Shown one piece after another: positions 45,918 to 58,912 of a stretch of DNA of 64,000 bases. The stretch covers positions 186,001-250,000 of the forward strand of contig NZ_JAJAVQ010000001.1 in the NCBI RefSeq assembly GCF_020531985.1, in the 5' to 3' direction. The stretch's first letter is position 1, and each line of letters starts with the position of its first letter. Source of the DNA: Rheinheimera aquimaris (lineage in GTDB: Bacteria > Pseudomonadota > Gammaproteobacteria > Enterobacterales > Alteromonadaceae). The notes beneath the pieces are model-generated. The model saw only the letters and a list, made by a program, of their open reading frames with translations. It did not search any database and had not been told where the DNA came from. The translations under genes were made by a program, and so were the position numbers.

Positions 45918-46661
45918 ATGTTTGATTTACATAACCATATTTTGCCGGGAATAGATGATGGCAGCCGTGATATGGCCGAGTCGCTGCAGTTACTGCGCCT
46001 TGCCGCAGAGCAGGGGATAAGTCATATGCTTGCCACTCCCCATATTAACCCGGGCCGTTACGATAACAGTGCTGCTGGCATCAAGCACGCCCTGGACTGC
46101 TTACGTCAGGCTGCCAGTGAGCAACATATCAACATCAGTGTTGCAGCTGCAGCTGAAGTGCGTATCAGCAGTGAAATGCTGCCGCTGGTTGAACAGGGCA
46201 AGTTACCGTTTATCGGGCAGTATCAGGGACGAAATATCGTGCTGCTGGAGTTGCCGCACAGCCATGTTCCACCCGGTAGTGATAAGTTACTGGCCTGGCT
46301 TGGCCGGAAAAATATCAGCGTGATGCTGGCGCATCCGGAGCGCAACCGCGATTTGCTGGCTGAACCGGAGCGAATTAAGCCGTTTATGAAAGCCGGTTGT
46401 TTGTTTCAGCTAACGGCTGGTGCGCTTGACGGCGATATGGGGCCGGACGTTATGGCGCTGGCCCGGCACTGGTTAACACAAGGGTTGTATCACATCATTG
46501 CCAGTGACACGCATTCGGTTAAACGCCGGCCCCCGAAACTTGGGCAGGCATTTGAGTATGTGAAACAGGTTCAGGGGGAAGAACAGGCGCACCGGCTTTG
46601 CGTTAGCAATCCGGCCGAGCTGTCTGCGCCTGTATTCGAACGCGGCATGTTACTGAGTTAA
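45918..46661 (+). CDS. PHP-type protein-tyrosine phosphatase (CpsB/YwqE family)
   Basis: A 247-residue metal-dependent phosphatase of the PHP superfamily, expected to dephosphorylate the preceding tyrosine kinase. The metal-site motif DLHNHILPGIDDG (residues 3-15) is at the N terminus, with ATPHINPGRY near 40, MLAHPERN near 137 and ASDTHSVKRRPP near 195. This type is usual in Firmicutes; here it replaces the low-molecular-weight Wzb phosphatase. It ends the exopolysaccharide locus and its stop overlaps by 4 bp the stop of the opposite-strand gene, with no terminator hairpin between them. Confidence 0.9.
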   Translation: MFDLHNHILPGIDDGSRDMAESLQLLRLAAEQGISHMLATPHINPGRYDNSAAGIKHALDCLRQAASEQHINISVAAAAEVRISSEMLPLVEQGKLPFIGQYQGRNIVLLELPHSHVPPGSDKLLAWLGRKNISVMLAHPERNRDLLAEPERIKPFMKAGCLFQLTAGALDGDMGPDVMALARHWLTQGLYHIIASDTHSVKRRPPKLGQAFEYVKQVQGEEQAHRLCVSNPAELSAPVFERGMLLS

Positions 46662-47881
46662 AAAAAAGTATCAACACTCTGCAACAGGTTGTAGTTATCA
46701 TCTACCAGCCATAAGCTGCGCCATTTATCAAAGGTCAGGCATGGATGTGATGTGCTGAGCAGCACAATATCGCCAATATGGGGCTGGATAGTGCCGCTGT
46801 AGCGCCAGAACGCATGCTGATCCATTACTTTTATCGTCTCGCAGCCCTTAGGTTTGTCGCTTAGCAACTTACCATCGCGGTAAACCGCAATCGCCTGCGG
46901 CAAGCCTGCGTCAAAGGCCGCGTCACGTTTACCAAAGCCGAGCACGGCCAGCCCCGGTTCCGGTAGAGACTGCACATAAGCCGCCAACTCCAGCGCACTG
47001 GATAAACTGTCACCCAGACGACAGGCAAGATGACTGCGCGACATCAGCTGTTGCTGCGCCTGTTCGTATATGCCTTTGTCATGGCTGATATAACAGCCCG
47101 GGCGAAGCACGATACGCATAGTATCGGGTAAAGTAGCTTTGTTAAGTTCAGTGGCAACAATGTCATACCAGACTGAGCCTGCGCCGCTTATCAGCGGTTG
47201 CTGGTATTTAAGCAGCTGTTGTCTGGTCAGCGCTTTCGCCAGCGCGGCAGCACGCTGTACAAACTGGCGCACATCGCGCTCGGTATCATCACTTTTTATT
47301 ACGCCCTCGTAGAATTCGATACCTGCCAGGCTTAAGCCGGGCAGGGTAGCAATATGTTGTGCCAGCTCCGTTGCCTGCTGATTAGTCCGGCAACCGCAGC
47401 GACCACCGGGTACACCAAGCTCAATCAGTACCGGTAAAGTAAGTTTTTCGGCGGCAAAAAAAGCTGACAACGCGCTGGCATTGGCATGACTGTCAACACA
47501 GACATAAATATTACATCCCCTGCCAACAACCGCTGCCACCAACGCCATATTGGCGCGACCAATCAACTGATTGGCCAGAATGATTTGCTGCGCACCGGCC
47601 TGGGCGGCAACTTGTGCCTGATAAGCCGTAGCGACTGTGATACCCCAGGCGCCACTGGCCAGTTGCTGCTGGAACAGCCAGGGCGTCATGCTGGTTTTAC
47701 CATGTGGAGCAAGCGACACGCCACAGCTATTGGCAAAGCGTTGCATCCATTGCAAATTATGCTCAACGGCAGACTGCTTAAGCACAGCCGCTGGCAGGCA
47801 GATATCCTGCTGCAGTAAATTCAGTTGCCGGTTTAATTGCTGCGGTGCTGCAGCTTTATGCCCAGAATTTTGGTACTTCAT
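46658..47881 (-). CDS. PLP-dependent D-amino-acid dehydratase/aldolase (DSD1-like, alanine-racemase fold)
   Basis: A 407-residue cytosolic protein of the alanine-racemase N-terminal fold joined to a D-serine-dehydratase-like C-terminal domain. The PLP lysine is K62 in APHGKTSM. The C-terminal metal pair His379 and Cys381 (SHPCLTFDKWR) matches the zinc site of eukaryotic-type D-serine dehydratase. It should act on a D-hydroxy amino acid such as D-serine or D-threonine; the exact reaction is not certain. It diverges from the RpiR gene across a 190-bp promoter region. RidA downstream of RpiR would remove the 2-aminoacrylate formed by such a dehydratase. Confidence 0.85.
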   Translation of the reverse strand: MKYQNSGHKAAAPQQLNRQLNLLQQDICLPAAVLKQSAVEHNLQWMQRFANSCGVSLAPHGKTSMTPWLFQQQLASGAWGITVATAYQAQVAAQAGAQQIILANQLIGRANMALVAAVVGRGCNIYVCVDSHANASALSAFFAAEKLTLPVLIELGVPGGRCGCRTNQQATELAQHIATLPGLSLAGIEFYEGVIKSDDTERDVRQFVQRAAALAKALTRQQLLKYQQPLISGAGSVWYDIVATELNKATLPDTMRIVLRPGCYISHDKGIYEQAQQQLMSRSHLACRLGDSLSSALELAAYVQSLPEPGLAVLGFGKRDAAFDAGLPQAIAVYRDGKLLSDKPKGCETIKVMDQHAFWRYSGTIQPHIGDIVLLSTSHPCLTFDKWRSLWLVDDNYNLLQSVDTFF

Positions 47882-47956
47882 AACATCTCGCTATTAACTA
47901 ATTGCTATCCAGATTGAAGTGTAACCAGTAAATTGCTGTAAATAAGCGATATTAAT

Positions 47957-47987
47957 GTTTACTTTTGCATCAGCATGGTACAAAGTA
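47957..47987 (+). promoter_or_regulatory. 31-bp candidate operator, copy 1
   Basis: The site reads GTTTACTTTT, two variable bases, ATC, three variable bases, then ATGGTACAAAGTA. Twenty-six of 31 bases match copy 2 at 55526-55556, in the same orientation. TACTTT and AAAGTA at its ends form an inverted repeat with 16 bp between. It lies between the divergent DSD1-like and RpiR genes, about 90-100 bp from each start codon. An RpiR-type dimer is the likely binder. Confidence 0.7.
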
Positions 47988-48007
47988 TCTTTTATGTCTA
48001 GAGAAAT

Positions 48008-48048
48008 GTTACTTTAGCAAAAGTTACTCTGTAACACCATTGCTAAAG
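48008..48048. promoter_or_regulatory. Nested dyads just upstream of the RpiR gene
   Basis: CTTTAGCAA (48012-48020) and TTGCTAAAG (48040-48048) form a perfect 9-bp dyad; inside it GTTAC-TCT-GTAAC (48023-48035) is a second one. TACTTT at 48010-48015 repeats the half-site of the 31-bp operator. Lying 24-64 bp before the RpiR ATG, these could be an autoregulatory site or a leader hairpin. Confidence 0.5.
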
Positions 48049-48071
48049 GTTTCAGCCCGGCGGAAAAAGTA

Positions 48072-48935
48072 ATGAGTTACGAAATAGATGTGTTGTCACG
48101 CATTTCTGAACGTTTTGTCGAAATGAGTGAATCGGAACAAAGGGTAGCGCAGCTGATCCTGGACAATGTCAAAGCTGCAACCGAGATGAGTATCGCTAAA
48201 CTGTCGGAGCAGGCCGGTGTAAGTCAGGCAACAGTTACGCGTTTTGCCCGCACCGTTGACTGTAAAGACGTGCGTCAGCTTAAAGTGAAGCTGGCGCAAT
48301 CGCTGGCTGTCGGCCAGCGCTTTGTTGAAGAAACACCCGATCTTGACGGTATTCAGGGTGTGTACGAAGCAATAAAAAACACGCTGGACCTGAGCCGCAA
48401 ATTGCTGGTAGAGGCCGATATCAAACTGGCAGTCAGTTATCTGCAAGGCGCCAGAATGATTTTTTGTATCGGCATGGGCGGCGGCTCTTCTATCGGATCA
48501 CAGGAACTGCAGTACCGACTGTTTCGTTTTGGTATGCCGGTGTGCAGTTATCAGGATGGTTTACTTACCCGAATGGCCGCTGCTGCAGTTGAACCTCAGG
48601 ATGTCCTTGTTGCCATTTCTCTGACCGGTAACACAGCAGAAATCATTGACTCTGCAGCCATAGCGCGCCAATACGGTGCCAAAGTTATTGCCATTACCAA
48701 ACCCAGCTCAGCACTTGCTGCCAATGCCGACATCGTGCTGGGTCTGCAGGCACCGGAAACCGACTTTATCTATAAGCCATCGGCTTCACGCTACGCCATG
48801 CTGGCGATTATCGATGTGCTGGCGACCGAAGTTGCTAAACAGAATAAGCGTAAATCACGCGACAAATTGCGCCGTGTCAAGCTATCGCTGGATAGCCATC
48901 GCGGTGGTGACGAGCGTCAGCCGCTTGGAGACTAA
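48072..48935 (+). CDS. RpiR/MurR family transcriptional regulator
   Basis: A 287-residue regulator. The N-terminal helix-turn-helix (about 18-75) contains MSIAKLSEQAGVSQATVTRFAR, and a SIS domain (about 120-255) contains FCIGMGGGSSIGSQEL and VAISLTGNTAEIIDSA. SIS domains of this family bind phosphosugars such as MurNAc-6-P or GlcN-6-P. It heads an operon with RidA, a symporter and an M81 protein, and faces the DSD1-like gene. The local repeated 31-bp site makes it the likely controller of this operon, the divergent enzyme and the GH20/receptor pair. Confidence 0.92.
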   Translation: MSYEIDVLSRISERFVEMSESEQRVAQLILDNVKAATEMSIAKLSEQAGVSQATVTRFARTVDCKDVRQLKVKLAQSLAVGQRFVEETPDLDGIQGVYEAIKNTLDLSRKLLVEADIKLAVSYLQGARMIFCIGMGGGSSIGSQELQYRLFRFGMPVCSYQDGLLTRMAAAAVEPQDVLVAISLTGNTAEIIDSAAIARQYGAKVIAITKPSSALAANADIVLGLQAPETDFIYKPSASRYAMLAIIDVLATEVAKQNKRKSRDKLRRVKLSLDSHRGGDERQPLGD

Positions 48936-48941
48936 ACCGTT

Positions 48942-49334
48942 ATGACGATAAAACGCTATGGTATCGATGAAAGTACCGGTACCGGTGGCCAAAAGCTGCC
49001 CTTTGCCAAAGCTGTAGAAGCCGCTGGCTGGCTGTATGTGTCAGGCCAGACACCCATGCGAAATGGTGAGGTCGTTGAGGGCGGTATTGTTGAGCAGTCG
49101 GAACTGGCACTGCAAAACTGCATAGACATTATGCAGCAGGCTGGCTATCAGTTGGCGGATGTTGTGCACGTAAAAGTGTATCTGACAGATGCGCGTTACT
49201 TTGCAAGTTTTAACCAGGTATTCCGCCGGGTGTTTGCTGAGGCGCCACCTGCCAGGATTTGTGCGGTGGCTGACCTGGTGGTCGACTGTAAAGTTGAGGT
49301 TGATTTGACCTGTTACCGCGCTGATCGCTGCTGA
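48942..49334 (+). CDS. RidA family protein (2-iminobutanoate/2-aminoacrylate deaminase-like)
   Basis: A 130-residue YjgF/RidA-family protein. The catalytic Arg is at position 105 (PPARICAV), the same number as in canonical RidA, so hydrolysis of reactive enamine/imine intermediates such as 2-aminoacrylate is likely. It starts 6 bp after the RpiR gene and 1 bp before the symporter gene. Its pairing with a PLP dehydratase makes chemical sense because that enzyme class releases aminoacrylate. The N-terminal sequence differs from housekeeping RidA, so it is probably a pathway-specific copy. Confidence 0.87.
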   Translation: MTIKRYGIDESTGTGGQKLPFAKAVEAAGWLYVSGQTPMRNGEVVEGGIVEQSELALQNCIDIMQQAGYQLADVVHVKVYLTDARYFASFNQVFRRVFAEAPPARICAVADLVVDCKVEVDLTCYRADRC

Positions 49335-49335
49335 T

Positions 49336-50829
49336 ATGAACGGCACACTGTTTCTGCTTGGTTTTGGTCTGTATCTGTTGCTGATGATTACCATCAGTTA
49401 TCTGGTATCACGCAGGCAAAGCAGCAGTGAAGATTTTTTGCTGGCCGGACGTAAAGTGTCCGGCACGCTGACACTGGGAACCACTGTCGCGACGATGATT
49501 GGTACCGGCACCAGTATGGGAGCTGTAGGCTATGCCTATCAGCATGGTTGGGGAGGCATTTTGTATGGTATCGGCGGTGCCGTTGGTATTTTACTGACAG
49601 CCTGGCTGTTTGCACCGCTGCGGCAATTGCGTTTTATGACAATGAGCGAAGAGCTGTGTTACTACGTTGGTGCCAACCAATGGGTAAAGCATTGCAGTGC
49701 GGTGCTTATCTTCCTGGCGTCACTGGGCTGGCTCGGCGCGCATATTATTGGTGGCGCCCTCTATTTATCCTGGGCCACGGGCATAAACTTACTGCATTCC
49801 AAATTACTGATCGCAGGTGCCTTTACTCTGTACGTTATGATAGGTGGTTATAAGGCGGTGGTTTGGACCGACAGTCTGATGGCTGTGCTGCTGTTTTGTG
49901 GATTTATTGTGATGAGTGCCGCTGCGGTGCATATTAGTGGTGGTATAGCACCACTTGCTGGTTTGGTCACTGAAGCGCTGCATTCCGGTCAGATGAAAAG
50001 CCTGCCGTTGCTGCCGGCTATTTCTCTGGCGGTGGTCGTGGCAGTGGGCGTGATGGCGACACCGTCATTTCGGCAACGTATTTATGCTGCACGCAGCGTC
50101 AATACGGTCAGGCGTTCGTTTTTGCTGTCAGGCGGTTTATATCTGTTATTTGCCTCTTTACCGGCCGTCATTGGTATTACCGCATTTTCACTGGCACCCG
50201 AGCTGGATAATCACCAGTTTGCCTTCAGTACGGTGGCCGTTATGTTGCTGCCAGCCGCTTTGGCAATGCTGGTGTTGCTGGCTGGCCTGTCGGCTACGTT
50301 ATCCTCTGCCAGTTCAGATGCTATTGCTGCCGTGTCGGTACTGATCCGCGATTTATACCAGGCAGTAACGGGGCAGATGCCGCCGGTTAATAAAGCCGTG
50401 CGCTACGCCAGACTGGCTGTGCTAGTAGTGTCAGGCTGCGCATTACTGCTGGCTCTGCTATCCGATGATTTAATCAGCTACATCAGCAACATGATCGCGA
50501 CGCTGATTGCCGGTATGTTTGTTGTCGCTGTACTTGGCCGGTTTTGGCAGCGGCTTAACTGGCAGGGCGCATTGGCGGCGATGCTGACAGCTGTATTTAC
50601 CTCGCTGTTGCTGTTAAGCCAACCGCTCTGGCTTGCACTGTGGGGAAACCCCTGTATTCCGGCTGTCAGCTGTGCTTTTTTTGCAGCAGTGCTAGTCAGC
50701 TTGCTGACGCCGGCATCCGCAGTAAGCCGGGATCTGGCATTACAACGTATTACGGCGCAGCGGGAGCTAAACCCTGTTGTGCAGCAAGAGCAAAACGGAC
50801 GCCCTGTCACGCTGGAACAGCGGTACTGA
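49336..50829 (+). CDS. Sodium:solute symporter (SSS family)
   Basis: A 497-residue inner-membrane symporter with about 13 hydrophobic segments. The N-terminal SRRQSSSEDFLLAGRKVSG and TMIGTGTSMGAVGYAYQHGWGG-type regions match SSS proteins that use the LeuT fold. Substrates of the family include sugars, amino acids, sialic acid and pantothenate. Position in an operon with RidA and near an exported GH20 enzyme suggests a sugar-amino-acid or D-amino-acid substrate. It starts 1 bp after the RidA stop. Confidence 0.87.
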   Translation: MNGTLFLLGFGLYLLLMITISYLVSRRQSSSEDFLLAGRKVSGTLTLGTTVATMIGTGTSMGAVGYAYQHGWGGILYGIGGAVGILLTAWLFAPLRQLRFMTMSEELCYYVGANQWVKHCSAVLIFLASLGWLGAHIIGGALYLSWATGINLLHSKLLIAGAFTLYVMIGGYKAVVWTDSLMAVLLFCGFIVMSAAAVHISGGIAPLAGLVTEALHSGQMKSLPLLPAISLAVVVAVGVMATPSFRQRIYAARSVNTVRRSFLLSGGLYLLFASLPAVIGITAFSLAPELDNHQFAFSTVAVMLLPAALAMLVLLAGLSATLSSASSDAIAAVSVLIRDLYQAVTGQMPPVNKAVRYARLAVLVVSGCALLLALLSDDLISYISNMIATLIAGMFVVAVLGRFWQRLNWQGALAAMLTAVFTSLLLLSQPLWLALWGNPCIPAVSCAFFAAVLVSLLTPASAVSRDLALQRITAQRELNPVVQQEQNGRPVTLEQRY

Positions 50830-50844
50830 ATTCAATGAGGGTTT

Positions 50845-52302
50845 ATGCGTATTTTTACTGCCTCGCTGGCAACTGAAACCAACACGTTCTCGCCGATGTA
50901 TACCGATGTGCATAGCTTCTATCAGAGCTTTTATGCGCCACCAGGCCAACATCCGGACACACCTACGTTATGCAGTGCACCACTGATTGCTTGCCGTGAA
51001 TACGCCAGCAGCAATGCCAGTATTGAAGTAATAGAAGGCAGTTGCAGTTGGGCTGAGCCAGGCGGCTTGCTGAACCGGCAGTCTTATGAGCAGTTACGCG
51101 ATGAAATTTTGCTGCAATTGCGTCAGGCTATGCCGGTGCAGGCGGTACTGCTTGGCTTGCACGGTGCTATGGTGGCGCAGGGGTATGACGACTGTGAGGG
51201 TGACTTACTAACGCGGGTACGTGAAATAACCGGGCCAGATGTGTTTATTGGTGCCACGTTAGACCCTCATAGCCACCTGACACCTGACCGGCTCAAAGCG
51301 TCTGATGTGCTCATAGCATTTAAAGAGTTCCCGCATCTGGATTTTATGCAGTGCGCGCGTGATTTGGTGCGCCTGGCGGTGGCAGCAGTGCAGCGTGAGG
51401 TTAAGCCCAGCATGAGCAGTTTCGATTGCCGGATGATAGATGTATTGCCAACCAGCCATGAGCCGATGAAATCCTTTATCACGAAGATCCGTCAGTTAGA
51501 GCAACAACCGTCAGTGCTGTCGATTTCGGTTATTCATGGTTTTATGGCGGGGGACGTGCCATATATGGGCACGCAATTGTTGGTCGTCACTGATAACAAA
51601 CCTGAACTCGGGCAGCAACTGGCAAAACAGCTTGGGTTGGAACTGTTTTCTTTCCGCGGACGCACTTTACCGCGGTTTGACAGCATAGAAACCGCACTGA
51701 CGTTAGCCGTACAAAGTAAGGGCACGACTGTGCTGGCCGACGTCTGGGACAACCCGGGTGGCGGTGTAGCAGGGGATGGCACCTTAATTTTGCAGCAGAT
51801 ACTTGCACGTAAACTGACCAATGTAGCTGTTGGGACTATTTGGGATCCTATGGCGGTTAAGTTGTGTTTTGCCGCCGGAGAAGGCGCCCGGATAAGCTTA
51901 CGTTTCGGTGGTAAAAGTTGTGCCACTGCTGGCGAGCCAATAGACAAAGTAGTGCAGGTTGTCCGGCTTAAAGCCAATGCTGAGCAGCAGTTTGCCGACA
52001 GCAGTGTGCCTATGGGTGACTGTGCATTGATTAAATTTGATGGTATCGACGTTATTCTGAATACCAACCGCTGTCAGTCGTTTGACCCCAGCCTGTTCAG
52101 AGCCCTGGGTATTGCGCCGGAAGAGCGCAGCCTGCTGCTGATCAAGTCGACTAATCATTTTTATCAGGGCTTTGCGCCGCTGGCGGCGCAGGTACTTTAT
52201 GTCGATGCCGGGGCGCCATACCCCAGCGATCCTAAGCGTAATGGCTACCGCCACCTGACCAGGCCGATATGGCCCATAGTAGAAGAGCCGTTCGCGCTAT
52301 AG
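50845..52302 (+). CDS. M81 family metallopeptidase-like protein (MlrC-like)
   Basis: A 485-residue cytosolic protein of the M81/MlrC family, named for a microcystin-peptide-degrading enzyme. ETNTFSP near the N terminus, GLHGAMV (about 105-111), ATLDPHSHL (about 134-142) and DNPGGGVAGDGT (about 306-317) are family motifs; the His and Asp residues are likely metal ligands. Many relatives sit in amino-acid and D-amino-acid clusters and may act on small amides or peptides instead of microcystin. AGGG precedes the ATG. Its stop overlaps by 6 bp the stop of the opposite-strand GH20 gene. Confidence 0.85.
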   Translation: MRIFTASLATETNTFSPMYTDVHSFYQSFYAPPGQHPDTPTLCSAPLIACREYASSNASIEVIEGSCSWAEPGGLLNRQSYEQLRDEILLQLRQAMPVQAVLLGLHGAMVAQGYDDCEGDLLTRVREITGPDVFIGATLDPHSHLTPDRLKASDVLIAFKEFPHLDFMQCARDLVRLAVAAVQREVKPSMSSFDCRMIDVLPTSHEPMKSFITKIRQLEQQPSVLSISVIHGFMAGDVPYMGTQLLVVTDNKPELGQQLAKQLGLELFSFRGRTLPRFDSIETALTLAVQSKGTTVLADVWDNPGGGVAGDGTLILQQILARKLTNVAVGTIWDPMAVKLCFAAGEGARISLRFGGKSCATAGEPIDKVVQVVRLKANAEQQFADSSVPMGDCALIKFDGIDVILNTNRCQSFDPSLFRALGIAPEERSLLLIKSTNHFYQGFAPLAAQVLYVDAGAPYPSDPKRNGYRHLTRPIWPIVEEPFAL

Positions 52303-55300
52303 TGCAATGCGCTCAATGCAGCCACACTGCTGAATGGTGACATACAAAGTCTTTTCGTCACGGCTCAAGGCTACATTCGTCGGTAAGGCATTGTTTAGCC
52401 GGTATTCCTGCAACAGGTTGCCGTTTTTATCCAGTTTCGCTACCACGCCTTTGCCGTAACGCGCGATAAAGAGATTCCCCTGGCTGTCGGTGCGCATACC
52501 ATCAAGGCCATATTCACTGAAGCGGGCAAACAGTGTTTTGTCAGCCAGGCTGTTATCCGGCAGGATCCGAAAACGCCATACTGTTCGCTGCACACTCTCG
52601 TTAACGTATAAAAATTGCTGGTCGGGGCTTACAGCAATGCCATTGGTTGTACCCATATCGGCGCGCATTAACTCGCTTTGGCCGTTTCGGCTAATGCGCC
52701 ATAATTTGCCGCTGTTATCTGCCCAGTTCGGATCGCTGGCAAACAAAGTACCGTTTTGCATAATGGCCAGATCATTAGGCTGGTTCATCGTCTTGTTGTG
52801 GCTGAAGGTATCCAGCGTGCCGTTGTGATAACGCAGAATATTGTGGCCGGTATAGTCGGCGATATACATGGCGCCGTTTTCATCAAACACTATGCCGTTG
52901 CCGGTGCTGCCAGGGGCTAATGTAATGTAACGACTTGCACTGCCATCAGCACTGACTTTGCCGACGGTACCAGCGGTTGCAAAGTTGACAGCATACAGGT
53001 TGCCGGCAGTATCGACAGCCGGACCTTCTACCGCGCCGCTGAAAGTCCCCGCTTTAACCCAGATATGGCTGTGCGGAGTATGTTCGAGTAACTTTTGTAG
53101 TGGCCGGTGCAGGGCAATAATTATCTCATGCTGAATGGTCGCGGCCTGTTCAAGCTGCAGTGCGATGCTGTCGCGCTTTGTTTTTAAAAGCGGTTTTTGC
53201 TGTTCAATGCTGTTCAGCATTAACTGGCCTGACTGGCTTAATGCTACCAGTTGCTGCATCAGAGAGTTGTAAGGTTTGAGAGTTGCGACATTTGTTGCAA
53301 GCAGTCCGTTAGCGGCGGTTTGCCACTTCGCAAGCTGCTCATTAAGCCACTGCTTGTCGACAGCCTGGCGTTGTTCCAACCAAAGCTGCAACCGTTGTTC
53401 AAACTGGCGGACAGCGCTTTGCTCGGCTGGTAAGAAATCAGCCAGCAGGTTAAGCGGGGCATCCTGATGATAAATGCCGGTAGCAGACTTTTGATGCAGA
53501 CGATGATAATAATGCGCGGGTTCAAAAGCCTCACTGACAGTTGCTAAAGCCTGTGAATGTTCACCTGCCAAAGCAGTATACCCCTGTTGCTGTTGCCTTA
53601 TGTTCTGCAGGCTGAAGTGATTTAACCGCTCATTAAGCCAGCCGAGCCGCTGATACATACTGTCTTCGTCAGTGACATCCTGAGCTGACCATAGTCGCTC
53701 AGCAACAGCGAAACCATTCGGCCATAAGCGGATATCGATATTGTCTGGCGTCACCAGCTCGCCCCATAACGCCATTTCGCCACCGAGAATGTGTTGCGTT
53801 GTGCTGCCGTCAGTATCATAGGTGTAAGGAACGGGCGCTGCTACCGGTAACTTTTTATCCGCGCGTTGCTGTAGTGCTATTGCAGAACCGTTGACCTGGT
53901 AAGGCGCATTACCGACAATCAGCTTACCCTGTAGTGTTTCGCCAAGCGTAAAATCTGCAGTAAGCGGCCCCATCCAGCTATCAATCCGGAAGCTTAGTTT
54001 GTCAGCGTTTAAGACAGGTTGCTGTACGAAGGCCGGTGAGCGGCCATCAAACTCCATTAAAGCGTGCACTGTGCCGTCAGTAAGACCGAGCAGGGCCAAC
54101 TTGCCTGTTATGGCGCTGCCGCGCAGCCGCTCGAAATCAAAATGCCAGGCAGACCAATGGGCAGGCGCTGATAAATCTGGCTGCGGCAGGTTTGCTGGCG
54201 CCGGGTCGTTACGGTAGTGAAAGGCGGCAAACTGTGGTTGGTCCAGATAATAGCCGGTCGATAATACGGTATCGTAACCTTCCGCAGCGGCCTGATGCAG
54301 CGATTCTACGCCACGCCATGACTGCACCAGCACCGATTTTGGTAAGCTGCCCTGCGTTATTTCATCCCAGCCCATCATAGTGCGGCCAGCCTGTTGCAGT
54401 ATGCTGTGCAGCCGCTGGTTAAAGTAAGCATGTAACGCAGTAGCGTCAGCCAGCTGATGTTGTTGCATAAACTTTACGATATGAGCCGAGCCAAGCCAAT
54501 GCTCGCTCAACACTTCATCGCCGCCGATATGCAGATAGGGATCAGGAAATACCGTTGTTACTTCCGTGATCAGTTCAGTCAGAAAGTCATAAACGGCTTC
54601 ATTCGTTGGGTCCAACACGGCCGGATGCACTCCCCAGTGTTTTTCGGGTTGTTTCGGCCCGGGTTGGCTCATCAGTTCAGGATAAGCAATACCGAGAGCG
54701 GTCGTATGGCCCGGCAGGTCAATTTCCGGTACGACGCGGATGCCACGCTCCGCGGCATACTGTACCAACTGCCGTAACTGTTGCTGTGTGTAGTAGCCTT
54801 GTTTGCCTCCCAGCTGGTGTAACCTGGGAAAACGCTTTGACTCAAAACGCCAACCCTGGTCATCAGTCAGATGCAGGTGCAGCACATTCAATTTCACCGC
54901 CGCCATAATGTCCAGCTGGCGCAGCAAAGTTGGAAAAGGCAAAAAGCGCCGGGCCGGATCCAGTAACACGCCACGCCAGCTAAACCGCGGCGCATCATAC
55001 AGCTGTAATGCAGGGGCTTTGCCATTTTTCTCCAGCTGTAATAGCGTTTCCAGACCGCGCAAAACACCGATTTCTGTTGTGGCGTCAAGTTCAATTTCGT
55101 GCTGGCTGATACGCAACTGATACTGCTCGTTCATCTGCACAACCGGTATATTGCTTTGGCGGGCGTCAGTGACTGTAATGCGCAAGGTTTGTTGTGGCGT
55201 GTCGGCAATATCGACGCCGGTTTGCAGAGCTAAGCGCTGAACAAACCGCTCTGTTGCCTGATTAAGCAAAATGTTGTCCGAGGCGTCGATATTAAAGCCA

Positions 55301-55455
55301 GAGCTGAAATCAAATTCTCCCTGCTGTAACACCAGTCTGGTCGGCACCGGTAGTAAATTAGGAGGCTCTGAAGCAGAAACCGTACTTATTAACAGCAATA
55401 TAGAACAGCAGATAAATCGCATAAACAGCCAGCTTGAATTGTTACTTGGTAACAT
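52297..55455 (-). CDS. Exported GH20 beta-N-acetylhexosaminidase fused to an SMP-30/gluconolactonase-like propeller
   Basis: A 1052-residue exported protein. The ATG at 55455 is used; a TTG at 55467 and an ATG at 55422 are alternatives, and all keep the signal peptide (ICCSILLLISTVSA). Domains: GH20b-like (about 30-155), GH20 barrel (about 160-610) with HLTDDQGWR and the catalytic Asp313-Glu314 pair in HIGGDE, and a long helical linker. The C-terminal 250 residues (about 801-1052) have repeats such as GNGIVFDENGAMYIAD, typical of SMP-30-like propellers. An extra segment of about 140 residues interrupts the barrel between STGYYLDQPQ and HILGGEMALW. It probably removes terminal GlcNAc or GalNAc from glycans outside the inner membrane. 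Confidence 0.85.
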   Translation of the reverse strand: MLPSNNSSWLFMRFICCSILLLISTVSASEPPNLLPVPTRLVLQQGEFDFSSGFNIDASDNILLNQATERFVQRLALQTGVDIADTPQQTLRITVTDARQSNIPVVQMNEQYQLRISQHEIELDATTEIGVLRGLETLLQLEKNGKAPALQLYDAPRFSWRGVLLDPARRFLPFPTLLRQLDIMAAVKLNVLHLHLTDDQGWRFESKRFPRLHQLGGKQGYYTQQQLRQLVQYAAERGIRVVPEIDLPGHTTALGIAYPELMSQPGPKQPEKHWGVHPAVLDPTNEAVYDFLTELITEVTTVFPDPYLHIGGDEVLSEHWLGSAHIVKFMQQHQLADATALHAYFNQRLHSILQQAGRTMMGWDEITQGSLPKSVLVQSWRGVESLHQAAAEGYDTVLSTGYYLDQPQFAAFHYRNDPAPANLPQPDLSAPAHWSAWHFDFERLRGSAITGKLALLGLTDGTVHALMEFDGRSPAFVQQPVLNADKLSFRIDSWMGPLTADFTLGETLQGKLIVGNAPYQVNGSAIALQQRADKKLPVAAPVPYTYDTDGSTTQHILGGEMALWGELVTPDNIDIRLWPNGFAVAERLWSAQDVTDEDSMYQRLGWLNERLNHFSLQNIRQQQQGYTALAGEHSQALATVSEAFEPAHYYHRLHQKSATGIYHQDAPLNLLADFLPAEQSAVRQFEQRLQLWLEQRQAVDKQWLNEQLAKWQTAANGLLATNVATLKPYNSLMQQLVALSQSGQLMLNSIEQQKPLLKTKRDSIALQLEQAATIQHEIIIALHRPLQKLLEHTPHSHIWVKAGTFSGAVEGPAVDTAGNLYAVNFATAGTVGKVSADGSASRYITLAPGSTGNGIVFDENGAMYIADYTGHNILRYHNGTLDTFSHNKTMNQPNDLAIMQNGTLFASDPNWADNSGKLWRISRNGQSELMRADMGTTNGIAVSPDQQFLYVNESVQRTVWRFRILPDNSLADKTLFARFSEYGLDGMRTDSQGNLFIARYGKGVVAKLDKNGNLLQEYRLNNALPTNVALSRDEKTLYVTIQQCGCIERIAL

Positions 55456-55525
55456 ATTAATAAGCAATAAACGATAGGATGTCTATAATTCAATGCTATA
55501 TGAAGGGATTTTTTGCACAATTTCT

Positions 55526-55556
55526 GTTTACTTTTTAATCTTGATGGTACAAAGTA
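55526..55556 (+). promoter_or_regulatory. 31-bp candidate operator, copy 2
   Basis: Same architecture as the site at 47957-47987: GTTTACTTTT, then ATC in the middle, then ATGGTACAAAGTA, 26 of 31 identical. It lies between the divergent GH20 and TonB-receptor genes, about 86 bp from the GH20 ATG and 153 bp from the receptor ATG. Its presence links both genes to the RpiR promoter region. Confidence 0.7.
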
Positions 55557-55693
55557 ACATTTAAGTGCGGTGGGCTTGGTAGTGCTACCGGCTTAATCCA
55601 GGAAGAACGAGACAAGTATACAGTGGCTTAGCCGGTAGTTGCGCTGCCGACAGAGCTAAACGGATTAAAACAAGAACAGAAGAGAAAAACATC

Positions 55694-58600
55694 ATGTCTG
55701 AATTACTCAGCGATAGCGTTACCTGCGGTAAAAAACGGGCCAGGCTCAGTCTGGCTATTTCGGCTGCGTTACTGGGTCTTAGCCCTTTTGCTGCAACAGC
55801 ACAGACGTCGCCACAAAATGACAGCGATGTCATTGCGAAGAATAGCGAACAACCTGTAGAGGTTATTGAAGTAAAAGGTATAAGAGGCAGTATCCAATCG
55901 GCGCAGGAACTTAAACGCTACGCTGACACAGTAAAAGATGTGATCACCGCCACAGATATCGGTGCTTTACCGGATAAATCAGTGACTGAAGCACTGCAAC
56001 GTGTACCTGGTGTGACGATTGAGCGCTTTGCTTCATCTGACGATCCTAAACATTATGCCGATGAAGGCACCGGCGTGCTGGTGCGTGGCCTTGATCGTGT
56101 GCGCTCCGAGGTAAACGGCCGAGACGCCTTTAGCGCTAATCCTTGGGGTGGTTTAAGCTATGAAGATTTTCCCGCTGAGTTACTCGGTGCGGTAGAGGTT
56201 GTGAAGAATCAGACCGCGGATCTTATCTCCGGTGGTATTGCCGGCACAGTCAACCTGATCACGCGCAAGCCATTTGATTCACCGGAACGTTTGATAGCCT
56301 TTAGCGCTAAAGCTAATTACGGTGATTTTCGCGAAGAAATCACACCGTCTTTCTCGGCGCTGTTTTCAGACAGCTGGGAAACAAAAGCCGGTAAGTTTGG
56401 CTTTTTAATCGCCGGCTCAAGGTCTGAATACAAATCGCGTGGTGATGGCGTAGGGCTGGGTAACTTCCACTCCCGTGGCGACGCTTTTATTCCTACGCTG
56501 GACCAGTGGGGCGGAATAACGGGGGTTGACCCAAGTTCACCGGTCGACGGTCCGGCCTTGCCCGGCCAGCCCGCAGGCAGTGTCTGGCATGTTCCGGTGG
56601 CCATTCATATGAGTACAGCAGACAACGATCGTGAACGCACTGGCTTTACTACGTCGCTGCAGTGGGCTAACACCGATAATACTATCATCGCGACGTTGGA
56701 ACATATCAACTCAGACGCATCTCTGGAATGGAATGAGCGGCAGATTGGTCAGGCAGCGCAGGGCTTTCGTGGTTTTATGGGCTCGTCACAGAACTGGACG
56801 GAAGATCTGGAAAATGGCTATCCACTGACAACCGACAACGGCTTTGTTACCTCAGGTATAGCGCTTGGTGTCAGCCCGGAAACACCGTTTTTCTATCGTA
56901 GCCGCTGGAATTATAACGAAAACACCGTTAAAGACACCTCATTTAACCTGAAGTTAAAACCGAGCGATCGTTTAACGCTGGTGCTTGATTATCAGCATAT
57001 TGATTCAGAAAAAATCGTACACAACTACAGTATGTCCGGTCAAACCCGTGGTAACCATGTACACGTGGTGTCGCCTTATTTCCTTGATATGCGTGGTGAG
57101 CGTCCGACGGTTGAATTTCTGAGTGACAATATTCTTACCGCTGGCTGGTCGCCTAATGAAGACTGGAACGGTCCTGTGCCTAATGTGTTTTTGGGCAGCG
57201 GCATGGAGCAGGAAGAACACAATACGGCTAAAGCCGACAGTTATAAATTCGATGTTACTTATGAGCTGGACGGCGCTTTTACTGCCATTAAAACCGGTTT
57301 TTACTACAGTGACAAAGATCTCACTGTTCGTGATACCGCTTATGAAGGTTGGTCTGCTATCGGTACTCCATGGGACATGAACGATCGTAATGCCGCAGCA
57401 GCAGTAAACCGGCCGGAGCTATTTGAACGGGTAGATTTTTCTGATTACTACAATGGTAAGGTGCTGCAGGGTAATGTGAATAACTTCCTGTTTCCGAAGA
57501 TGGATCTGGTAAGGAATTATGCTGAATCATTACGTCAGGGCTGTCGTGACGGCTGGCATAATGCCACCAGCAGTGCTGCCAATAATGGTGTTTGTACCGG
57601 CACCTATGTGCCTTATGCCGACAAACCTAATCGTGTTGAAGGGCCTTTTGCCGCGCATAATATCAGTTCTTCAAATGAACAACGTACAGAGTTTTATCTG
57701 CGTGCAGACTTTGAGCTGGTGAATCAGGATATTCCGGTTAAAGGTAATCTGGGTTTGCGTTATGTCAGTTATGAGCTGGAGTCTACCGGTGCTTTTGTTC
57801 AGCCGCAAATTACCCGACGCGGAGAGCCAGGAACATCGCTCAATGCAGTAATGCAGCAACCGGAGTATCTGCGCTATTACAACCTGGCTAGCGGTGAGTC
57901 AGAGTTGAGTACCGTTGAGGGCACCGATTACGACACTATACTACCCAGTTTCAACGTTAACTTTGGCCTTACCGATGAAATCGTGGCGCGCTTTGGTATC
58001 TCTAAAGGTTTATATTATCCAAGCCTGGTTGATGCGCGTAATATCAGCTTGCTGGACCTGGATTATACCCGCCGTCTGCAAACACCTGGTGCAGACTACG
58101 ACGAAGAGACTAACCCGGTGGTTGGTATCGATGATATCGAAGTTACAGCACTGGCCGGTAACCCTTACCTTGAGCCGGAGGAGTCAGTAAATGCTGATCT
58201 GAGTGTCGAGTGGTACTTTGCGCCGGCAGGTTATGTTACCGCAGGTCTGTTTCATAAGAAGCTGGATAACATTATTCGTAACCGACAGTTTAATCTGGAC
58301 GTAACATACAACGGCGAAGAATATGATGTGTCAGCCTATGGCCCGGCTAATACCGGCTCAGGCACTATCCGCGGCGTGGAGTTATCTTACTCGCAGTTCT
58401 ACGACATGTTGCCCGGAGCCTGGAGTGGTTTGGGCTTACAGTTTAACTTCACATACATCGATCAGAGCGGCCTGGAAGACCCGAACGAGATCTCGGAAGG
58501 CACGTTAGGCTTTGACGAAAATGGTAACCCGATAGCGGATAACCGCAACACTTTCCGTGTGTTCAGTGGTTTACCACTGCAAGGTTACTCTGATAAAAAT

Positions 58601-58912
58601 ATGAATATCGTCGGTATGTACGAGTACGACAAAATCTCCTTCCGTCTGGCTTACACCTGGCGCTCGGAATACCTGTTAACGCTGCGCGAGTCTGAAGAAT
58701 ATGTTCCGGCCTTCGCTAAAGCATCGGGTATGATGGATGCCAGCCTGTATTACTCCATTAATGACAACTGGAAAGTTGGTATCGAAGGCAGCAACCTGCT
58801 GAATACCGAAACTAAAACTCAGTATCAGATGAATCAGGCCGGCGTAAGAACAGATGCATTAAACTTCACGACTGACCGTCGCTATGCGTTAAGCGTGCGC
58901 GGTGTGTTCTGA
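55694..58912 (+). CDS. TonB-dependent receptor (TonB-Xanth-Caul type)
   Basis: A 1072-residue outer-membrane receptor that uses TonB energy to bring large or scarce ligands into the periplasm. The signal peptide ends at about residue 36 (ATAQT). A TonB-box-like VEVIEVKGIRGS (about 55-66) is followed by the plug domain (VPGVTIER, VLVRGLDRVRSEVNGRD) and a long barrel ending in RGVF. The length and the KGIRGSIQSAQE start fit the TIGR01782-type family linked to carbohydrate uptake in Alteromonadales, Xanthomonas and Caulobacter. It diverges from the GH20 gene across a shared promoter region and should import that enzyme's substrate or product. Confidence 0.93.
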   Translation: MSELLSDSVTCGKKRARLSLAISAALLGLSPFAATAQTSPQNDSDVIAKNSEQPVEVIEVKGIRGSIQSAQELKRYADTVKDVITATDIGALPDKSVTEALQRVPGVTIERFASSDDPKHYADEGTGVLVRGLDRVRSEVNGRDAFSANPWGGLSYEDFPAELLGAVEVVKNQTADLISGGIAGTVNLITRKPFDSPERLIAFSAKANYGDFREEITPSFSALFSDSWETKAGKFGFLIAGSRSEYKSRGDGVGLGNFHSRGDAFIPTLDQWGGITGVDPSSPVDGPALPGQPAGSVWHVPVAIHMSTADNDRERTGFTTSLQWANTDNTIIATLEHINSDASLEWNERQIGQAAQGFRGFMGSSQNWTEDLENGYPLTTDNGFVTSGIALGVSPETPFFYRSRWNYNENTVKDTSFNLKLKPSDRLTLVLDYQHIDSEKIVHNYSMSGQTRGNHVHVVSPYFLDMRGERPTVEFLSDNILTAGWSPNEDWNGPVPNVFLGSGMEQEEHNTAKADSYKFDVTYELDGAFTAIKTGFYYSDKDLTVRDTAYEGWSAIGTPWDMNDRNAAAAVNRPELFERVDFSDYYNGKVLQGNVNNFLFPKMDLVRNYAESLRQGCRDGWHNATSSAANNGVCTGTYVPYADKPNRVEGPFAAHNISSSNEQRTEFYLRADFELVNQDIPVKGNLGLRYVSYELESTGAFVQPQITRRGEPGTSLNAVMQQPEYLRYYNLASGESELSTVEGTDYDTILPSFNVNFGLTDEIVARFGISKGLYYPSLVDARNISLLDLDYTRRLQTPGADYDEETNPVVGIDDIEVTALAGNPYLEPEESVNADLSVEWYFAPAGYVTAGLFHKKLDNIIRNRQFNLDVTYNGEEYDVSAYGPANTGSGTIRGVELSYSQFYDMLPGAWSGLGLQFNFTYIDQSGLEDPNEISEGTLGFDENGNPIADNRNTFRVFSGLPLQGYSDKNMNIVGMYEYDKISFRLAYTWRSEYLLTLRESEEYVPAFAKASGMMDASLYYSINDNWKVGIEGSNLLNTETKTQYQMNQAGVRTDALNFTTDRRYALSVRGVF

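Follow-up and report, generated by a model that had tools for sequence, protein, structure and literature searches.

The 64,000-nucleotide stretch of the Rheinheimera aquimaris genome considered here (contig NZ_JAJAVQ010000001.1, positions 186,001 to 250,000; hereafter the window) carries a gene cluster in which two gaps between divergent genes each hold a 31-bp site. The first site lies between genes for an OngC-like protein of the D-serine deaminase/DSD1 family and a regulator of the RpiR family (the ongC/ongR gap), the second between genes for a GH20 hexosaminidase and a TonB-dependent receptor, and both sites have the same orientation (Table 1). This agrees with a sequence-only reading of the same DNA, as does the identity of the two sites at 26 of 31 positions with all five differences in the spacer, which proved exact when both sequences were read again. 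Each site encloses a 28-bp inverted repeat, TACTTT-N16-AAAGTA, with no mismatch in either copy. Based on the comparisons below, the sites are predicted to be operators of the OngR-type repressor encoded in the cluster, a reading to which a probability of about 0.85 is given.

Table 1 Genes, 31-bp sites and candidate 15-bp boxes of the cluster (positions in the window)
Feature	Position	Strand	Basis or remark
OngC-like D-serine deaminase/DSD1-family protein	46658..47881	-	Pfam D-ser_dehydrat, Ala_racemase_N; synteny
Possible box TGGTACTTCATAACA over ongC start codon	47871..47885	+	Weaker; 105 bp from copy 1 box
Site copy 1, GTTTACTTTTGCATCAGCATGGTACAAAGTA	47957..47987	+	ongC/ongR gap; half-site GTTTACTTT + spacer + TGGTACAAAGTA
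Right arm of copy 1 as degenerate OngR-type box TGGTACAAAGTATCT	47976..47990	+	11/15 to TGTTAYTNARTAACA
Second box of ongC/ongR gap, AGTTACTCTGTAACA	48022..48036	+	Preceded by half-site TGTTACTTT at 48007-48015
OngR-type RpiR regulator	48072..48935	+	Pfam HTH_6 + SIS; OngR clade, apart from HexR
RidA-family protein (OngD-like)	48942..49334	+	Pfam; 65-96% identical in loci where matched
SSS-family symporter (OngIT-like)	49336..50829	+	Pfam
M81/MlrC-like metalloenzyme	50845..52302	+	Pfam; cluster without ongB
GH20 hexosaminidase fused to SGL (lactonase-type) domain (OngA-like)	52297..55422	-	Pfam
Canonical box TGTTACTTGGTAACA (14/15)	55440..55454	+	18-32 bp upstream of GH20 ATG; start 105 bp before that of copy 2 box
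Site copy 2, GTTTACTTTTTAATCTTGATGGTACAAAGTA	55526..55556	+	GH20/TonB-receptor gap
Right arm of copy 2 as degenerate box TGGTACAAAGTAACA	55545..55559	+	13/15 to TGTTAYTNARTAACA
TonB-dependent receptor (OngOT-like)	55694..58912	+	Pfam

The cluster shows synteny with ongC, ridA/ongD, SSS symporter, GH20 and TonB receptor genes of ong loci. A comparable set, in which an RpiR regulator stands with D-amino-acid-deaminase-like, RidA, SSS symporter, GH20 and TonB receptor genes, is described for Pseudoalteromonas prydzensis ACAM 620 by the founding ong paper (Jiang et al. 2022, PMC9537276; main text). There, OngR represses ongCRBD and ongOT-1, and the genes are induced by 2-acetamido-2-deoxygluconic acid (GlcNAc1A). 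Unlike in that organism (PMC9537276), ongB is absent here and a gene of the M81 family is present, the GH20 protein is fused to an SGL domain, and the cluster has no kdgK. Judged by its gene content, the cluster is thus a variant of the ong cluster for oxidative chitin use, without ongB, and not the standard form. Elsewhere in the genome, on other contigs, lie an AA10 lytic polysaccharide monooxygenase (LPMO) gene and two stretches resembling 2-keto-3-deoxygluconate kinase (36-38%), the matched frame being interrupted by a stop in one of them. A separate stretch matching the SGL domain is found in several distant ong loci (L060, L062, L067, L069, L071, L171). The domain, fused to GH20 here, may open the lactone left on chitin ends by LPMO oxidation.

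In a 94-row tree that did not include the P. prydzensis OngR itself, the window's regulator groups with OngR proteins, and HexR falls outside at 100% support in the Shimodaira-Hasegawa-like approximate likelihood ratio test (SH-aLRT); the regulators of loci with the 31-bp site make up one side of a branch with a support of 60. Across L099-L114 no protein of the cluster is better conserved than the regulator, at 93-97% identity (equalled by RidA in L111) vs 46-62% for GH20 and 60-78% for OngC. It had been described as the only regulator among the genes tied together by the sites, and no other was found among the cluster genes, although a gene for HexR, another RpiR-family protein, lies just past the right end of the window (G000:C1:250454-251284). 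This HexR is 39% identical to the window's RpiR protein and belongs to a separate clade. As a binder of the sites, HexR was rejected on its half-site and its clade: the 15-bp HexR palindrome predicted in Vibrio parahaemolyticus, TGTAATTAAATTACA in the available text of PMC11906056, has a half-site unlike those here, and no box described in the two gaps has a half-site of the TGTAATTAAATTACA type.

Within the window, the 31-bp pattern with up to three mismatches matches twice, a number reached in none of 100 dinucleotide shuffles. In the whole 4.23-Mb genome, TACTTTN10TGGTACAAAGTA (up to two mismatches) and TTTACTTTN10TGGTACAAAGTA (up to three) each find the two sites only, and the reversed control gives one match for each. 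The inverted repeat taken by itself is not significant, as TACTTT-N16-AAAGTA with up to two mismatches was found three times in the window at an expectation of 2.67. Among 196 genomes of the family, 22 exact copies of the core occur in 12 genomes, all of them with the cluster, so that the motif is not common at unrelated genes. Eleven of these genomes encode an orthologous RpiR protein (at least 78% identical); in the twelfth (G136, 88% complete) the site lies between GH20 and TonB-receptor genes, and an M81 gene is on the same contig. Four sites with one mismatch occur in four other genomes, on a level with the three matches of the reversed control, and none of the seven cluster proteins was found within the 3 kb read around each of these sites.

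Orthologous gaps were compared in two sets of loci. For the first, the RpiR protein was searched in the 196 family genomes and up to 20 kb was read around 40 matches; the second, named set takes the top 80 out of 149 relatives, from genomes partly shared with the first. The ten loci of the first set with 78-97% RpiR identity have the core exact in 10/10 ongC/ongR gaps and in all nine GH20-side gaps reached by their contigs. In the named set, 20 loci belong to the clade of the window (RpiR 79-97% identical; Rheinheimera, Arsukibacterium, Alkalimonas and some metagenome-assembled genomes named only Gammaproteobacteria), and here a search for TACTTT-N10-TGGTACAAAGTA with up to two mismatches found it exact in 20/20 ongC/ongR gaps and in 18 of the 19 GH20/TonB gaps covered, the contig of L107 ending before the latter gap. 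The same search did not find the core in the other 60 loci of the set. The bases are therefore kept, and not lost, in nearly all orthologous gaps. Among 21 and 19 distinct sites, window included, none of ten spacer columns is invariant in gap I and one of ten in gap II, as are about 2% of the flanking columns. As these sites were collected by the exact core, its 18 columns are invariant by construction, and core conservation is thus tested by how many of the orthologous gaps contain it. In L033 and L099, the receptor downstream of site 2 is a different TonB receptor of 891 aa, and site 2 is still kept; a receptor 80-81% identical to that of the window sits beside ongC in L069 and L071.

These patterns bear on two explanations in which the sites would not be operators. 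A recent duplication of one gap, without function, would account for 26/31 identity within one genome, but the flanks of the two gaps are unlike and the core is kept in both across genera while the flanks drift, which makes such an origin extremely improbable. Alternatively, the site could be a conserved promoter or leader element, for example with an extended -10 in TGGTACAAA, as it lies upstream of both ongR and the TonB receptor and has a partial -35/-10 likeness. A promoter, however, would not be expected at just two sites in each genome and with 18 bases held constant, an RNA stem-loop fits poorly with an unconserved spacer, and a scan for sigma-70 promoters matched none in either gap. 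A promoter or leader element is thus very unlikely.

The operator reading draws further support from a family of 15-bp boxes. In distant alteromonads, TGTTA-N5-TAACA is the commonest dyad upstream of ongC (11/27 loci; at most 3 in 20 control windows), and in Vibrionaceae TGATA-N5-TATCA stands there in 23/37 loci, with a control maximum of 11; the general form TGNTA-N5-TANCA is thus above control in these two lineages. A box with up to one mismatch is present in 12/12 loci of the Pseudomonas/Halomonas group, which rests on box inspection as its top dyad counts (6) equal the control maximum (6), and the Alteromonas/Gilvimarinus group shows single boxes at one mismatch or fewer. The right arm of each 31-bp site reads as a degenerate box of this family. 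With up to one mismatch, TGTTACTNNGTAACA occurs at five places in the own genome, three in the cluster and two inside coding genes resembling a chemotaxis receptor and a secretion gene.

In addition, each gap holds further boxes, and their distances are conserved. In the GH20/receptor gap, TGTTACTTGGTAACA is identical in 19/19 loci with the exact core (window included), 89-91 bp before TACTTT, and the distance of the box pair is 105-107 bp in all 19. In the four Alkalimonas loci just 22-31 of the 70 bases between the boxes are identical to the window, yet the distance is kept. Two boxes 105-108 bp apart also occur in 32/37 Vibrionaceae loci, and box pairs 31-33 bp apart in several others; 105 bp amounts to ten helical turns, and both spacings are near whole numbers of turns. 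In the ongC/ongR gap, the second box (up to three mismatches) and the possible box over the ongC start codon are each found in 17/17 loci of the Rheinheimera/Arsukibacterium type, window included for the former. The two 31-bp sites are thus real as a shared element but not the whole of it, since 15-bp palindromes akin to the right arm are present in each gap as well. That they tie these genes into a regulon, as the sequence-only reading proposed, is supported; as a reading of each site, a degenerate 15-bp OngR box with an added half-site fits better, every gap having two or three boxes in all, and the regulon has a known identity, namely oxidative chitin use.

It could be argued that OngR binds the canonical 15-bp boxes only and that a second regulator, common to both gaps, recognises the 31-bp site. 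In favour of this, the 31-bp core is limited to one OngR clade while the box family is wider, positions 3 and 7 of the right arm do not follow the box consensus, and the left arm amounts to just a half-site. In copy 2, however, the right arm matches the OngR box at 13/15 positions and lies 105 bp from a canonical box, which is the box spacing of Vibrionaceae. Furthermore, a second regulator, of which there is no candidate among the cluster genes, would have to control these same genes through two sites in each of the genomes, and this arrangement is regarded as quite improbable.

Several observations nevertheless weigh against OngR control of the sites, or against parts of it. Neither the box at 48022-48036 nor that at 47871-47885 is present in any of the four Alkalimonas loci, and the latter may reflect coding constraint instead, as it covers a start codon. 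The distance from half-site to box is 19 bp in the 31-bp site vs 15 bp in the second composite of the ongR gap, and in L104 only the right arm of site 2 is kept, with TGTTACTTGGTAACA also visible there. Dyad counts upstream of ongC are not above controls in the Pseudomonas/Halomonas and Alteromonas/Gilvimarinus groups, and in 8 of 30 distant OngR loci (L044, L049, L050, L052, L057, L058, L063, L070) no box with up to two mismatches was found outside genes. Exact TGTTAYTNARTAACA is at background in the 196 genomes (43 places in 37 of them vs about 47 for the reversed control), just six of the places having an OngR-type gene within about 1.5 kb. The empty sigma-70 scan belongs here as well. A final point is that symporter and GH20 genes lie behind the sites, and the layout would predict OngR control of both, whereas in Pseudoalteromonas ongIT and ongA are outside OngR control according to the main text of PMC9537276. 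Owing to its background frequency, the exact box was also rejected as a genome-wide finder of wider regulons.

OngR-like genes with 43-45% identity adjoin a TonB receptor in L061, L064 and L065, without other cluster genes. As a box sits between the two genes, exact in L061 and L064 and with one mismatch in L065, OngR paralogues may each govern a small regulon of their own.

RpiR proteins form dimers and tetramers. Under the operator reading, the two sites would control both divergent promoter pairs, that is ongC with ongR-ridA-symporter-M81, and the gene for GH20-lactonase with that for the TonB receptor. Each site would combine a degenerate 15-bp OngR palindrome (right arm) with an inward-facing half-site (left arm) into a 28-bp spaced dyad, and a second box would stand 105 bp away, canonical in the GH20/receptor gap and possibly over the ongC start codon in the other. 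In the absence of inducer, an OngR dimer or tetramer would occupy the boxes and repress, perhaps bridging the pair in a loop; such looping over 105 bp is put at somewhat less than even odds. A product of GlcNAc1A uptake would lift repression. Probably, the effector arises as an intermediate in the breakdown of GlcNAc1A; glucose did not act as an inducer in P. prydzensis according to the main text of PMC9537276, which makes 2-keto-3-deoxy-6-phosphogluconate (KDPG) the less likely candidate.

The two targets predicted here are those of OngR in P. prydzensis, the ongC operon and the TonB-receptor operon (PMC9537276). No description of an OngR operator was found in print, and the main text of that paper, its supplements aside, makes no mention of a binding site, motif, palindrome or electrophoretic mobility shift assay. 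A close parallel in form is RccR of Pseudomonas, for which the available text of PMC5489143 describes 15-bp palindromes and 28-bp dyads of TGTAGT/ACTACA with opposite effector responses, and one promoter in which the 28-bp dyad wholly contains a 15-bp palindrome. Boxes of the form TGTTAC-N3-GTAACA and a TACTTT-N16-AAAGTA dyad containing a degenerate box are similar here; the half-site, however, is another, and the long-dyad hexamers are offset by 3 bp from the short-box hexamers. RccR also has a different role, regulating central carbon genes with KDPG as effector (PMC5489143). An effector-driven switch between the two site types, by analogy, would be a guess, and an unlikely one. NanR of Streptococcus pneumoniae likewise has a palindrome and a degenerate half-site at a fixed distance, and bridging by a NanR tetramer with looping has been proposed (available text of the preprint PMC12713135). 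In contrast to the case here, NanR is an activator responding to sialic acid in another pathway, with an 18-bp palindrome and the half-site 23 bp downstream.

A key difference from the known ong clusters is the missing ongB. In nine of nine genomes tested out of the 12 in the clade, no match to ongB was found at E <= 1e-10, and the same query matched 3/3 comparison genomes, one of which is its own. The query, the L050 amidohydrolase, matches PpOngB (PDB 9kb1) at 591 bits, and the gene adjoining ridA is a D-aminoacylase-type amidohydrolase in L050, L119, L157 and L168, where RpiR is 46-57% identical. The M81 gene occurs in 13/196 genomes, namely the 12 with the site and one with a 37% relative. 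MlrC (PDB 7ylq) aligns with the protein over residues 1-478 of 485, and the TETN, LDxHxHL and FKxxPHxD stretches are kept. As ongB is unmatched in all genomes tested while M81 sits in the cluster, the simplest reading is that M81 is a likely non-orthologous replacement of OngB, the GlcNAc1A deacetylase. In literature retrieved for Rheinheimera, chitin and M81, the only match concerned plant rhizosphere communities, and the founding ong paper (PMC9537276) mentions neither Rheinheimera nor Alkalimonas in its main text. As a side observation, ongC matches in two pieces in L123 (8753-9908; Vibrio metschnikovii CIP 69.14), perhaps owing to a frameshift or a sequencing error.

Taken as a whole, the pathway may have been rebuilt in the clade of Rheinheimera, Arsukibacterium and Alkalimonas, with M81 taking the place of OngB as GlcNAc1A deacetylase, OngR extended to the symporter and the hexosaminidase-lactonase, and an operator with two modes (15-bp boxes, and a 28-bp dyad in which one such box is nested) that loops over ten turns and is switched by the effector. 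This combined picture is tentative and, with all its parts, rather doubtful.

While the ong pathway and repression by OngR are known from Pseudoalteromonas, no published account of the control sites was found, and one enzyme of the pathway seemingly has a substitute in this clade. OngR is a genetically shown repressor, and a predicted operator with lineage-specific forms would make its binding, looping and effector testable and would help to find ong regulons by sequence. With ongB missing here, this branch of chitin oxidisers would probably escape searches that use OngB as their marker.

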